Source: an uncultured Opitutales bacterium (GTDB lineage Bacteria; Verrucomicrobiota; Verrucomicrobiia; Opitutales; Seribacteraceae). Taken from it: a stretch of DNA of 62,790 bases. This document shows, one piece after another, positions 1 to 46,389 of this stretch. Each line of letters begins with the position of its first letter. Positions within the stretch are counted from its first letter, which is position 1. The position numbers and the translations under genes were made by a program. The stretch covers positions 1 to 62,790 of the forward strand of contig CALKMX010000013.1 of the NCBI GenBank assembly GCA_938091675.1, in the 5' to 3' direction. Under the pieces are notes generated by a model, which did no database searches, was not told the DNA's origin, and was given only the letters and a program-made list of their open reading frames with translations.

Positions 1-498
1 CATTTTGATTTTGTCCACATGGTCCATTCCTTCGATCACTTGTCCCCAAACCGTGTATTGGCGGTCAAGAAATGGGGACGGTTCAAAACAGATAAAAAAC
101 TGACTGTTGGCACTATTGGGACTGGATGAACGGGCCATGGAACAGGTGCCGCGCACATGTTTCTTGTCATTAAACTCTTCTTTCAGATCGGGAAGGTCGG
201 AACCGCCCGTACCAACCCGGGGTTCACTGAAATCTTTTACATTGCCGAATTCCACATCTCCGGTTTGGGCCATAAAACCTTCGATTACTCGGTGAAAGGC
301 GACTCCGTCATACTTACCAGACTTGGCAAGCTTTTCAATGCGCTCGACATGCTTGGGGGCAACATCTGGAAAGGTTTCGATAACAACCGGGCCATCTTTT
401 AATTCGATGACAATGACATTTTCAGGGGAGGATGAGGATGGTTTGGCTTCTGACACAACGAGAGGAAGCATGAGCACAAGGTAGGCAAGATACTTCAT
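1..498 (-). CDS. Cyclophilin-type peptidyl-prolyl cis-trans isomerase, C-terminus truncated by window edge
   Basis: Reverse-strand reading gives [15 protein letters not shown]...[16 protein letters not shown]...[43 protein letters not shown], a classic cyclophilin signature. Open to the edge, so absent from the ORF track. Confidence 0.93.
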   Translation of the reverse strand, partial: [166 protein letters not shown]

Positions 499-608
499 TT
501 TTAAGTGGTTAATAATTTGGTTAAAGATACAACCCATGCCCATGAGCGAGGCAAAGGTCGAGCTAAAATCCCTGAAGATGGGATAGGTTTCTTGAAGTCG
601 TGGGACTC

Positions 609-1904
609 CTAAAACAATTGGGTTAAGGGACTACCTTTATCCGCCAAGGTAAAGGGTCTGCGTGAGGGAGAGAAAACAATTTCATCCAGAGGAAGCCCAA
701 GGGCGTAGGCAATGGTGGCATTGAAATCAGGTATCTGGGTCACACCATCGACAACCTCACGCCCTTCCTCATCGGTCGCCCCCCAGACCTGCCCGCCGCG
801 GATCCCTCCGCCTGCAAGCATGCAGGAAAAGGCTTTGGGATAGTGGTCCCTTCCCTCGTTTACATTGTAATCAGGGGTCCGGCCAAATTCGGTGGCCAGC
901 ACAACTAAAGTCTCGTCGAGCATTCCGCGCTTATGCAGATCATCCAACAATGCGGATAGTGCCTGATCGAGGATATCACACCTTTCAATTACACGCTCAT
1001 AGTTATTGTTATGGGTGTCCCATCCACCAAGCTGGACTTCTACAAACCGCACCTGTTTTTCCACCAACCTTCTGGCCAGCAGGACGCCTTGACCAAAATT
1101 ATCACTGCCATAGGCATGACGGACCGCCTGGGTCTCTTGGCTCAGATCAAATGCGTCCAAATCTTTACTACGCATCAAGCGGACCGCATCTTCATACATA
1201 TCGGCATAGGATCGTACTTTTGCCAGGTTGTATTTTTCCACAAATGCCCGGTCCAACTGCTTGGACAGATTCAAGTTCCGGTTAAAGGTATCCTCATCAA
1301 ATCCTTTGTGTTCACAATTGGCCAGTCCTTTACCGGGAGCCCCGACTTGTAAGGGTTGGTGCTGGGTGGACAGGAAACCGGAGAGTGGATGCTGGTTGCC
1401 CGTTCCAACCACAACCGCACCGGGAAGAGTTGGATTAAACCGCCCATCTAATCTGGTTACCCAGGATCCCATGCTGGGGTGCACAATCGTCCCTCTTTTG
1501 TCATAGCTTGTATGCATGAAATAATTTCCCTGCTCATGAGCGCCTTTGGTAGAGGTCAATCCACGGACAACCGCTATCTTTTCGGAATGATTGGCCAATA
1601 ATGGGAGAGTCTCTGCTAATGCTATGCCATCGGTTTTGGTTTTCAGCTGTTCCATCGGGCCACGCACCTCAGAGGTTTTAGGGTCAAAAGTATCCAGGTG
1701 GCTCATCCCACCGGCCATGTAGAGGTAGATTACATTTTTGGCTTTGGGGGCATAGTTTACCGGACGGTTCAGTCCCAAGCCGGCACCAAGCACTTGGGAG
1801 TTGGTGGACCATGGCAAAATACTGACACCCAGAAAACCCTTGGCGGCATAGCTTAAATAGGCTCTCCGGTTAAGTTCCGATTCAAAAAAACTTTTCGTAT
1901 TCAT
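609..1904 (-). CDS. DUF1501 domain-containing protein (exported sulfatase-like fold; RR motif near N-terminus)
   Basis: LNRRAYLSYAAKGFLG N-terminus; YLYMAGGMSHLDTFDPK and VLATEFGRTP motifs typical of DUF1501. Confidence 0.9.
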   Translation of the reverse strand: MNTKSFFESELNRRAYLSYAAKGFLGVSILPWSTNSQVLGAGLGLNRPVNYAPKAKNVIYLYMAGGMSHLDTFDPKTSEVRGPMEQLKTKTDGIALAETLPLLANHSEKIAVVRGLTSTKGAHEQGNYFMHTSYDKRGTIVHPSMGSWVTRLDGRFNPTLPGAVVVGTGNQHPLSGFLSTQHQPLQVGAPGKGLANCEHKGFDEDTFNRNLNLSKQLDRAFVEKYNLAKVRSYADMYEDAVRLMRSKDLDAFDLSQETQAVRHAYGSDNFGQGVLLARRLVEKQVRFVEVQLGGWDTHNNNYERVIERCDILDQALSALLDDLHKRGMLDETLVVLATEFGRTPDYNVNEGRDHYPKAFSCMLAGGGIRGGQVWGATDEEGREVVDGVTQIPDFNATIAYALGLPLDEIVFSPSRRPFTLADKGSPLTQLF

Positions 1905-35467: not shown

Positions 35468-36796
35468 ATGAATAACCAAGACAAAGTAAGCCGTAGAAAA
35501 TTCATGGGATCTGCCGCACTGGCCAGTGCCGCAATCTCTTTCCCCAATGTTCTGACAGCCCAGAGCAAGGGCAAGGAAGTCATCCGATTTGCCTTAATCG
35601 GATGCGGTGGCCGGGGAAAAGGAGCTGCCGCACAGGTGATGAACTCGCCGCATAAGACTGAATGTGTTGCTTTGGCGGATGCATTCATGGACACGGCCAA
35701 GGGGGCACAAAATTACCTCAAGCATGTTGGGCATGAGGACAAATTAAAACTTTCAGACGATACGATTTTTGCCGGCTTGGATGCTTACAAAAAGGTGATG
35801 GAAATGGATAATGTAGATTTGGTCCTGCTTACCACTTCACCCGGTTTTCGTCCGTTACATTTCGAACATGCAATCAATAAGGGCAAGCATGTCTTTATGG
35901 AAAAACCAGTTGCCACGGACGGGGCTGGAGTTAGGCGGGTTTTGGCAGCCAATGAAGAGGCAAAAAAGAAAAACCTGATGGTTGCGGTGGGCTTACAGCG
36001 ACACCATGAACCAAATTATATCGAGACTGTAAAACGGATTCAGGATGGTGCCATTGGCGAACTAAATTATGCCCGTGTATTTTGGAACAGTGGGGGAGTC
36101 TGGACAAAGAAGAGAACATCCAGCCAGAATGAAATGGAGTACCAAGTGCGCAACTGGTTCTATTTTAATTGGTTGTGTGGAGACCACATTGTCGAGCAGC
36201 ACATTCACAACACTGATATTATTAATTGGATCAAGGGCGCCTATCCTATCAAAGCAAATGGTCATGGTGGCCGGCAGGTCAGGGGTAATCCTGCAAACGA
36301 TCCCGATTGGAAGGACCACGGCGAAATCTATGATCACCACTTTGTTGAGTTCGAGTATGCCGATGGTTTCCGTATGTATAGCCAGTGCAGGCATATTAGT
36401 AATTGCTGGCAAAATGTTTCTGAGCATATTTATGGATCGGAAGGATACAGTGCAATTAGCCCTCACCAAATTTTCCCAAAATCAGGTGACCCCTGGCGTT
36501 ATCCGAACAAGAAAGTAGGCGGGCATCAACAGGAGCAGCTCAACATGATTGATGCATTGGCGAAGGGTGAAGTTTACAACGAAGGGGACTATGGTGCGAA
36601 GAGCACGATGACCAATATCCTTGGGCGCTGTGCTACTTACTCCGGGAAAGAAGTCAGCTGGGATCAGGCCCTGAACTCTAAGGTTGAATTATGTCCTGGC
36701 ATTGAGAATTTGAGCTGGGATAGCGAAGCACCTGTGCAGCCAAATTCTGCCGGTGGATACGATGCTCCGGTTCCAGGGAAAACTCGTGTAATTTAA
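35468..36796 (+). CDS. Tat-exported Gfo/Idh/MocA family oxidoreductase
   Basis: Twin-arginine SRRKFMGSAALASAAISFP; ALIGCGGRGKGAAAQ; GKHVFMEKPVATDGAG. Confidence 0.94.
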   Translation: MNNQDKVSRRKFMGSAALASAAISFPNVLTAQSKGKEVIRFALIGCGGRGKGAAAQVMNSPHKTECVALADAFMDTAKGAQNYLKHVGHEDKLKLSDDTIFAGLDAYKKVMEMDNVDLVLLTTSPGFRPLHFEHAINKGKHVFMEKPVATDGAGVRRVLAANEEAKKKNLMVAVGLQRHHEPNYIETVKRIQDGAIGELNYARVFWNSGGVWTKKRTSSQNEMEYQVRNWFYFNWLCGDHIVEQHIHNTDIINWIKGAYPIKANGHGGRQVRGNPANDPDWKDHGEIYDHHFVEFEYADGFRMYSQCRHISNCWQNVSEHIYGSEGYSAISPHQIFPKSGDPWRYPNKKVGGHQQEQLNMIDALAKGEVYNEGDYGAKSTMTNILGRCATYSGKEVSWDQALNSKVELCPGIENLSWDSEAPVQPNSAGGYDAPVPGKTRVI

Positions 36797-42685: not shown

Positions 42686-44374
42686 TTAATTTTCAAAGGG
42701 ATCAAAAGTGGGTGGAATTTCTGGCAATTCAGGAGTGTTGGTTTCTACAGAAGCAGGTACTTCGGGGTCACCAAAAACATCTCCAAGAGGGACCTCTTCT
42801 TGCGGAATGCTTGTCTCAGGAACAGTAGAACCAGACTCAAAGGGATCAAAGGTTGGTGGAGGAGGTGCCTCAAATGGATTGGCGGGATTGGGTTGAGATA
42901 TATCTTCAAAAGGATCAACAGCCGGGCTATTGTTAAATGGATTCCCAACAGGTTGATTCACCGGCTCGGAATCCGTAAATGGACTTTTCGGTTCCTCTGC
43001 AATACCAGCCTCTCCATTGGAAGATTCAAAGGGGCCGGGTGGGGGAGGGAATGGGGCTGTGTTAACCCCGGGGGTATCTGATTCAATCTCTGGCAAATCT
43101 CCAAACGGATCAAAAGAAGGTTCAGGCTGAAGGGGTGGGGGAGGCGGAGGCAAATTTTCGTCGGAAGGAAGGGCTGGATCTTCAACAACCTCTGGAGCAT
43201 CCATCGGGGGTTTGACTTTTATGACTGGAGCGGTTTCAGGAGGAGCGGGAGGGCTTGGTAAGGGCTCTTCCTCAATGACCGGCTTCTCTTCAACCGGGGG
43301 CTTTTGTGGTTTTTCCTTTTTTCTTTTTTGAGTCTGTTCTTTCGCGTCTGCTTTGAGGGCAGGCTGATCAGGTACCTCGCTTTCAGGGACCGGGGGTAAA
43401 TCAACTTTATCCAACCCTGATTTTTCCGGGCTAAGCTCAGAAGCATCAGGTTGGGAGGGCTCACCTTCCTCTTTGTCAGAGGTTGGGCTGACAATTCTTT
43501 GCCCAGTCAAGAGGTCTTGAGCAGGGACTCCGTGGTCAAACCGGATTTCTGAAACTTTTTCACCCTTTTCATTCCATTCGGTACAAACACCATGCTCCAG
43601 ATTATTTTTGAAGTTATAATCAAATTGTTGCTGTCCTGAAGGAAACCATCCTTTGGAATTTCCCTCCATCATATCATCAACGAATTGAGCCGATAAGCGC
43701 TTTTTGCCGTTTTCATACCAAATGGTTCTTAAGCCATGCTGTTTGTCTTTCTGGTAAAAAAGCCCGAGCTTTTGCTGACCATTCGGGTACCATTCTGAGG
43801 AAGGGCCTTCTCTCAACCCGTGACGGTAGATCGTGGAAGACTTCTCCGTGCCATCCGGGTACCACTCTTTTGCTTCCCCATGGGCTATTCCCTCACGCAT
43901 CTCAACTTGAAACCCCTTTACACCGTTCGGGTGCCATTCTGACTTTGGCCCAGTGAGTTGATCTTGCTCGTAAGTTTCCTCACGCCACAACTCCCCGGTT
44001 ATGCGAAATTCTTGAGAAGGGCCATGGCGTTGACCATCTTTATAAACGATAGAGGTTCGTTTTCTACCGTTGTAAAAATATTCGATGGTGGTTCCGTGTC
44101 TTTTCCCGTCTTTCCACGATGAAATAGACTTGGTGGGGCTTTGCTCAAAAGTCTCAATCGCTTTCCCGCTAAAAGGTCCTTGTTGCTTGGTTTGATTGCC
44201 ATCGGTTTCGGATTCTCGGACGACTCCTTCATCATCCACTTCCAACCAATGAAGCATGACGGTCTGATCGGTGGAGAACGAAAGATGGTCGGAACTTGTA
44301 ACGCTAGTTTGAAGGCAGGAAACAAGGGGTAAAAGAGAGAGCGGGAACAACCATGGAACCAAGGACTTCATCAT
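42686..44374 (-). CDS. Lipoprotein with YwqK/MORN_2-type repeats and proline-rich C-terminus containing DPF/NPF motifs
   Basis: Lipobox LLPLVSCLQ; repeats of HGxxxEWYPNGQKK type; C-term FDPFGDLP...GNPFNN..VDPFEDI..ANPFEA..TFDPFES..TFDPFEN. Confidence 0.85.
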   Translation of the reverse strand: MMKSLVPWLFPLSLLPLVSCLQTSVTSSDHLSFSTDQTVMLHWLEVDDEGVVRESETDGNQTKQQGPFSGKAIETFEQSPTKSISSWKDGKRHGTTIEYFYNGRKRTSIVYKDGQRHGPSQEFRITGELWREETYEQDQLTGPKSEWHPNGVKGFQVEMREGIAHGEAKEWYPDGTEKSSTIYRHGLREGPSSEWYPNGQQKLGLFYQKDKQHGLRTIWYENGKKRLSAQFVDDMMEGNSKGWFPSGQQQFDYNFKNNLEHGVCTEWNEKGEKVSEIRFDHGVPAQDLLTGQRIVSPTSDKEEGEPSQPDASELSPEKSGLDKVDLPPVPESEVPDQPALKADAKEQTQKRKKEKPQKPPVEEKPVIEEEPLPSPPAPPETAPVIKVKPPMDAPEVVEDPALPSDENLPPPPPPLQPEPSFDPFGDLPEIESDTPGVNTAPFPPPPGPFESSNGEAGIAEEPKSPFTDSEPVNQPVGNPFNNSPAVDPFEDISQPNPANPFEAPPPPTFDPFESGSTVPETSIPQEEVPLGDVFGDPEVPASVETNTPELPEIPPTFDPFEN

Positions 44375-44603
44375 ACTTAAAGGTAATGTCTGGGTGATGA
44401 GGTTCTGGCAAGAGGTTTTTCTGCATAGAAAAGTGTTCGGGCATAGCATTTAGAGAAAGCTCAATTAACCGAACGAACTTTGATGGGACTTTGGATTTGA
44501 TCGACCAGATTTAAGAACTCCAAAGAAAAGAACTCATCATTTCTTCCGAACGAAGGAATCCTGCAAAGGTCGGCAAATCAATTGGTGCTCAAATCAAGCA
44601 AAC

Positions 44604-45060: not shown

Positions 45061-46389
45061 TCACTGTCTGATCTGGGCACGATAAACTTTAGTACCTTCA
45101 GAAATGGTAAAGTTTCCGTCTTTAACCATATCAATCGGGGATAGCTCAAGGATAAACGTTTCGTTCTTTAGCTTGGGCAAAGTCTTTGTAGTTTTCAGGT
45201 CGCCCGGTGTTGTTGCACTTGCTTCTGAGTCCGAAGATAGGTTGAGCAGGAACGACTCTGCTTTATCCCAGTTTTGATATAGCCAGGCACCGGCTCCACC
45301 AAGCACAAGAAGGGAAACCAGCAAGAACGCGGAACCTCCAATCCCGGAGGATTTGTCTTCGGACTGGGCGGAGTCGAGCTTTTGCCTCTCGATAAGTGTG
45401 CCTACAAGAACGGAAACCTCGAACAGAAAATACAAAGGAATGGTAAGGATACACAAACTTACCGGATCCCCCCCGGGGGTAATTAGGGCTGCAGAAACCA
45501 TTAACAAAACCAGAACAAACCTTCTGCTTTTTCGTAACTTTTCAACGCTTAGCACGCCGACCCGGATCAATAAAATGAGCACTAATGGAAACTGGAATGC
45601 AAGACCTACAGCAAAGGTCATCCAGATCACTGTGCTGTAGTAATTGCCCGCTTCAGGCCTGTAAATATCCAGCCCCAAAACATTGAAGGAAAATTCGATG
45701 GTGAAGGCCAGGGATAAGGGCAGAATGAAGAAATAAGTCATTCCCGATCCTGCCAGGAAAAGAAAGGTTGCGGCTAAGCAGCCGGGAAAAAAAATCCTTT
45801 TCTCACTTTTGGTTAGACCCGGAGTGACAAATCCACCAACAAAATACAGGACAAAAGGAAGCGAAAGGCCCAATCCCCCGAGAAAGCATATTTTCATGGC
45901 AATGAAAATGGGAGAGTAGGAGCGTATGACCTGCAATAAATTTCGGTCCTTCCCTCCGGCAAAGTGAATGAGCAGACGCAGTCGGTGCTGGGGGTCGGAA
46001 ACCCCCCAGTTTTTTAGATCTTCATCTTTGGCATGAATGAGATCGATTAATTCTACGCCCTGGCCTTCCAGCGTATCTTGGTATTCGCTAAGACCGGTTG
46101 CCTGAAGGTCTATGGCCATATTACCAAAATCCTGGACTGCCGATATCAGCGGGCGCTGAAGAAGCCTTACCGAATTATCCAGAAAGGCCGCCACCACTAA
46201 ACACCCGAGAATAAACGCAACTGCGGACTTAAAGATGACCCATCTCATTTCTTCCAGGTGCTCAAGGAAGTGCATTTTATTGGGGTCGCTAGTGCTTTTT
46301 TTGGTGCTGCCCAGCGCCCCGATGAGGCCGCGGTCGCGAAAGCGCTGGCCAAAGGTTTGAGGTTCCTCAGGTAGTGGAGGAGGAGTCAT
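45061..46389 (-). CDS. tatC: Sec-independent protein translocase TatC with SAM-like insertion and C-terminal extension
   Basis: FLEHLEEMRWVIFKSAVAFILG; FVTPGLTKSEKRIFFPG; TYFFILPLS; ALITPGGDPVSLCILTIPLYFLFEVSV. 442 aa, much longer than a typical ~250 aa TatC. Confidence 0.94.
   Translation of the reverse strand: MTPPPLPEEPQTFGQRFRDRGLIGALGSTKKSTSDPNKMHFLEHLEEMRWVIFKSAVAFILGCLVVAAFLDNSVRLLQRPLISAVQDFGNMAIDLQATGLSEYQDTLEGQGVELIDLIHAKDEDLKNWGVSDPQHRLRLLIHFAGGKDRNLLQVIRSYSPIFIAMKICFLGGLGLSLPFVLYFVGGFVTPGLTKSEKRIFFPGCLAATFLFLAGSGMTYFFILPLSLAFTIEFSFNVLGLDIYRPEAGNYYSTVIWMTFAVGLAFQFPLVLILLIRVGVLSVEKLRKSRRFVLVLLMVSAALITPGGDPVSLCILTIPLYFLFEVSVLVGTLIERQKLDSAQSEDKSSGIGGSAFLLVSLLVLGGAGAWLYQNWDKAESFLLNLSSDSEASATTPGDLKTTKTLPKLKNETFILELSPIDMVKDGNFTISEGTKVYRAQIRQ

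Follow-up and report, generated by a model that had tools for sequence, protein, structure and literature searches.

A SAM domain in the first periplasmic loop of TatC in a family of Opitutales, with a possible role in TatC self-association

We found that the TatC protein encoded in a 62,790-nucleotide stretch of DNA from an uncultured Opitutales bacterium (the window) carries an insert between its first and second transmembrane helices (TM1 and TM2), and it is nearly certain that this insert (residues 92-146) is a true SAM domain. The Tat pump exports folded proteins, and TatC is its highly conserved core subunit; SAM domains are small protein-docking modules best known from animal signalling proteins. 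From the known topology of TatC, the loop bearing the domain would face the periplasm. We hypothesise, with confidence falling just short of even, that the domain is a self-association module which braces TatC-TatC contacts. The parts of the gene are listed in Table 1.

Table 1. Parts of the tatC gene, in coordinates of the window.
Feature	Coordinates	Strand	Remarks
tatC gene	45061..46389	-	442 aa; SAM insert and C-terminal extension
Junction of TM1 with the first periplasmic loop (QRPLISAVQDFGNM, residues 78-91)	46117..46158	-	conserved
SAM domain, TatC residues 92-146	45952..46116	-	SAM_2 over cut-off; all 36 relatives match; AF2 predicts five helices; best 50 Foldseek hits all SAM
Linker from SAM domain to TM2 (KDRNLLQVIRSY, residues 147-158)	45916..45951	-	conservation above that of the SAM domain
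TatC core TM2-TM6, residues 159-338	45376..45915	-	aligned to solved TatC structures 4b4a, 9dzz
C-terminal extension, residues 339-442	45064..45375	-	linker, predicted seventh TM helix, variable tail

The 442-aa product, whose reading frame opens with ATG, is TatC. It matches PF00902 with an E-value of 3e-51 (174.6 bits against a Pfam cut-off of 25.1) and TIGR00945 with 141.2 bits (cut-off 132.7). Two glutamates of E. coli TatC, E15 and E103, contact the signal peptide (PMC13323110). E103 aligns to the invariant E196 of the present family, and E15 aligns to E47, which is acidic in most rows and A in L046; the adjoining E46 is invariant. The TatC structures of Aquifex aeolicus and E. coli (4B4A, 9DZZ) have the same six-helix core and conserved signal-peptide site residues, but their first periplasmic loop lacks a folded insert.

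Several searches identify the insert as a SAM domain. On the full protein the Pfam profile SAM_2 (PF07647) scored 28.4 bits against a cut-off of 20.5 (E 1.9e-6), and on the loop alone its E-value was 1.2e-7; SAM_1 (PF00536) on the loop alone reached 22.9 bits, 0.1 under its cut-off of 23. Both profiles matched all 36 homologous loops at E-values of 0.01 or lower, the best being 1.4e-11. When these 36 family TatC loops were made into an alignment and profile (A2), a search of the PDB retrieved SAM structures, with SHIP2 on top (E 1.1e-8), and the single sequence likewise retrieved the SAM domains of SHIP2/EphA2, Caskin and ANKS. In a fourth, divergent genus of the family Pfam recognises the SAM domain poorly, with 19.5 bits in G041 and no match in G040; the loops of both genomes nonetheless group with the other SAM loops in loop-sequence clustering.

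The predicted fold agrees with the profiles. AF2, run on the loop alignment, placed helices at loop positions 2-19, 22-31, 35-39, 43-48 and 54-64, corresponding to predicted helices at TatC residues 81-98, 101-110, 114-118, 122-127 and 133-143; the core had a pLDDT of about 81-86, and the tail was uncertain. The loop is thus predicted to be an ordered five-helix bundle and not a disordered segment. In a Foldseek comparison of this model with the PDB the best 50 hits were all SAM domains at probability 1.00, the tightest fits having an rmsd of about 0.8-1.0 Å across about 53 residues and the TM-score reaching 0.87 by target length; none had an E-value below 0.001, as is expected for so short a domain. 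Five short helices likewise lie between TM1 and TM2 in the AF2 model of the full-length protein, although at pLDDT 59 and pTM 0.41 that model is too poor for placing the SAM domain on the protein. A chance resemblance to SAM domains was rejected, as 36 of 36 loops match in Pfam and the PDB profile search and Foldseek point the same way. A preliminary description of this DNA had recognised a SAM-like pattern in the interval 45952-46110, which holds the codons for residues 94-146, and SAM profiles and SAM folds match this part of the first periplasmic loop strongly. Two of its details need correction: the net gain is about 58 residues (the interval measures 74 aa in this TatC and about 16 aa in relatives that have no insert) and not the roughly 70 that it gave for an insert which is indeed present, and the landmark SYSPIFIAMKICF, which it placed before TM2, is the start of TM2 itself.

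The insert is a constant feature of the family. TatC was matched in 38 of 42 genomes of the same GTDB family, whose named records are mostly marine Opitutales metagenome-assembled genomes and single cells, and all 38 family genomes with a readable TatC loop carry a SAM-like insert (the fragmentary record L080, which begins past the loop, was left out of the loop reading); it was thus found in each close relative examined. Measured from landmark to landmark, the loop is 87 aa in three genera and 92 aa in the fourth (G040, G041), and as a shorter interval it spans 74-79 aa in 38/38; its length is constant within 36 of the 38 readable loops, and none has lost it. An artefact of assembly or reading frame was rejected, since SAM-bearing TatCs with an open loop occur in 38 independent genomes. 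In other families of the order the loop is mostly about 16 aa long, and profile A2 found no SAM-bearing TatC outside the family among 388 genomes of the phylum and 384 of the class (overlapping samples). One match to A2, in genome G497, was rejected as a SAM-bearing TatC: its SAM domain is N-terminal, and no TatC homology is apparent in the sequence. The locus L125 of that genome (contig C4, ORF 112-1686, minus strand) combines an N-terminal SAM domain, a repetitive linker and one hydrophobic segment, and its C-terminal region resembles by eye a von Willebrand A domain.

On a phylogeny built from the TatC core, with the insert excluded, the SAM-bearing TatCs form one clade (support 98/86). This clade adjoins family f16, in which ten members have an unrelated insert of their own and two have a short loop. 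The simplest reading of the core tree is that the SAM domain was gained once, at the base of the family. One family genome with the SAM type also holds a second TatC with a short loop on a long branch (L102, G040:C54); it may be foreign, because that genome is 7% contaminated.

Conservation was expressed as mean pairwise identity across 28 near-full-length family members. Identity is 83% in TM2-TM6, 74% in TM1 and 60% in the SAM domain, 87% in the 12-residue linker that follows the domain, and 23% in the C-terminal tail; from TM1 to TM6, SAM region included, there are no gaps in the 28 rows. The QRPLISAVQDFGNM segment has 75% identity within the family and no indels. Positions L95, G99, Y103, L107, L114, L117, L125 and W128 are invariant and likely belong to the SAM core, and the polar D94, Q96, H135, R138, H142 and R149, invariant in 36 rows, may be exposed. 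Mean net charge is -3.2 in SAM helices 2-4 (range -7 to +1), +0.5 in helix 5 and +2.2 in the following linker. Acidic and basic faces thus lie apart, and the Foldseek neighbours include the polymer-forming SAM domains of tankyrase and BICC1; both observations would suit SAM domains that join separate Tat core complexes into membrane chains or patches, as SAM polymers do elsewhere. We regard such chains as very unlikely, the charge contrast between the faces being modest.

The genome has one TatA/B gene, encoding a 96-aa TatA that adjoins a sigma-70 gene, and a single TatA/B gene was present in all 11 family genomes checked (this one included) and in most members of the order. The presence of the SAM domain therefore does not track TatB loss, and the idea that it substitutes for TatB is not supported. 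Five candidate Tat signals over the cut-off and four weaker ones were found in the genome. Among the weaker matches is a GFO/IDH/MocA oxidoreductase (35468-36796, plus strand) that starts MNNQDKVSRRKFMGSA and has a twin-arginine motif (SRRKFM); judged by its sequence it is a probable Tat substrate, and the Tat system is presumably active in this bacterium.

In none of 37 family genomes does SAM_2 match anything but the TatC SAM domain, and in this bacterium's own genome no further SAM_1 match was found besides TatC, so a SAM-SAM partner elsewhere in the genome was rejected by both profiles. Since these searches gave no other SAM domain, any SAM-SAM pairing would have to be between TatC copies. 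A SAM domain could instead dock a non-SAM periplasmic protein, for example a chaperone, a protease, a cell-wall enzyme or an emerging substrate, and so tether the translocase to a downstream factor. Binding of non-SAM partners by SAM domains is known biology, and the unrelated inserts found in the same loop (see below), PQQ blades included, would fit docking sites for lineage-specific partners. We nevertheless consider this unlikely: no candidate partner was found, the neighbours of tatC (an S4-like protein, a MORN-repeat protein, PPDK and an HflX-like GTPase) offer none that is obvious, and the precedent in Myxococcus xanthus is one of self-association. The MORN-repeat neighbour (42686-44449, minus strand) is 587 aa long and combines MORN-type repeats with an extended proline-rich tail.

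Self-association of TatC through the SAM domain is the role that we favour, because of this lack of another SAM partner, the role of the periplasmic cap in TatC assembly and the homotrimeric insert of M. xanthus TatC. According to this proposal, the first periplasmic loop of a working TatC would have acquired its SAM domain on a single occasion, in the ancestor shared by the marine Opitutales family, which would have kept it ever since. The domain would lie at the periplasmic cap, the place of contact between TatC copies in the core complex; SAM domains of adjacent subunits would bind one another, and this binding may brace the oligomer that TatC forms in this Tat system with its single TatA/B protein. 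The cap is a site of TatC self-contact in which dominant-negative mutations cluster (PMC5102672, PMC5201420), and cryo-EM in 2026 resolved a trimer of TatBC heterodimers with TatC tightly packed on the periplasmic side; the same study describes the M. xanthus insert as a homotrimer that adds to TatC-TatC contacts (PMC13323110). The charge separation on the SAM surface and the invariant H135, R138, H142 and R149 also argue for self-association. Against it, the SAM domain is less conserved than the TatC core (60% versus 83%), the acidity of its mid-loop face varies across the family from -7 to +1, and relatives with a 16-aa loop evidently cope without it. Closure into a trimeric ring is, moreover, not the usual mode of SAM chains. 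The unrelated insert of Nitratifractor salsuginis TatC, probably in the same loop, is disordered in the complex (PMC13323110), which likewise speaks against self-association.

Two published inserts resemble the present one in part. M. xanthus TatC (PDB 9E03, PMC13323110) likewise has a folded domain in a periplasmic loop, structured in the complex, but its insert comprises residues 127-303 and, judging by this residue range and alignment offsets, lies in the second periplasmic loop. The two inserts showed no sequence relation, the SAM profile search of the PDB giving no match to that of M. xanthus. N. salsuginis TatC (PDB 9E02, PMC13323110) also has a large periplasmic-loop insert, placed before TM2 by alignment offsets, which the same profile search did not find. 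The SAM domains of SHIP2, Caskin, ANKS and tankyrase share the profile and five-helix fold with that of TatC; those proteins are eukaryotic, whereas here the domain lies inside a membrane-protein loop that would face the periplasm. Periplasmic TatC inserts are already known, one of them with a solved homotrimeric structure (PMC13323110), and in the open-access literature we found neither a paper joining TatC and SAM nor a description of inserts in Verrucomicrobiota TatC. What the preliminary description called a new translocase variant is accordingly, as far as that literature goes, new in its SAM type and not as a periplasmic insert, and the claim is further tempered by the other unrelated inserts that the same loop bears across Verrucomicrobiota.

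With those inserts, the TM1-TM2 loop of TatC is a hot spot of insertion in this phylum, bearing at least five mutually unrelated inserts besides SAM, a pattern that seems undescribed. When the loops of 125 Verrucomicrobiota TatCs were clustered, six insert families emerged, none of them detectably similar to any other; 34 loops were short, and four were singletons. The families are the SAM type (n=38), a GTN-rich and probably beta type of 79-132 aa (n=24), the f16 type (n=10), a probably helical type of 112-122 aa (n=9), a type of about 146 aa (n=4) and a PQQ_2/BamB-like type (n=2); these counts are not frequencies, because the sample was partly picked for long open frames. Of four further insert families, one includes L147-L149, L154, L158-L160, L180 and L181, another includes L150, L163, L164 and L175, and the other two include L110-L112 with part of L143-L179, and L036, L041-L043 with part of L090-L096. 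On the core tree the SAM, f16, 112-122-aa and 146-aa types each form one clade. Representatives of these four insert types had no Pfam match over the cut-off, and the Akkermansia-type and GTN-type inserts had no significant relative in the PDB or Pfam.

The hot spot bears on whether the SAM domain does anything at all. It could be a tolerated passenger in a loop that accepts folded domains, its fold maintained solely through the harm that misfolding of the insert would do to TatC. In favour of this, the loop is occupied by no fewer than six unrelated insert types, the N. salsuginis insert is disordered (PMC13323110), and gain or loss has occurred inside one genus of family f18, where L040 and L098 carry about three PQQ_2/BamB-like beta-propeller blades (E about 1e-18) and L099 has a TatC without them. 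The absence of losses among 38 readable family loops, the fixed length within 36 of them and the six invariant polar positions named above make a passenger decidedly unlikely in our view. A broader picture, which we hold only tentatively and think somewhat improbable, is that the loop serves as an evolutionary docking port whose at least six kinds of insert tune association of TatC or the Tat complex, with SAM-SAM contacts setting the size or clustering of the translocase in the present family. The periplasmic cap controls assembly of the transport complex, and the natural fusion of TatC with a well-understood self-association module lends itself to testing the relation between TatC oligomerisation and transport: the SAM domain could be deleted, exchanged or altered at the interfaces known for such domains. 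The presence of at least six unrelated insert types also means that a supposedly constrained loop has been a repeated target of domain capture in one phylum.

The C-terminal extension has a separate distribution: it is missing from genus g4, though g4 retains the SAM insert. It holds a hydrophobic segment near residues 351-372, and if this predicted seventh helix crosses the membrane, the tail would be periplasmic like the SAM domain. The variable tail closes with a conserved F-x-L-x-L-x-P / (Y/F)-x-A-x-(I/V) pattern.
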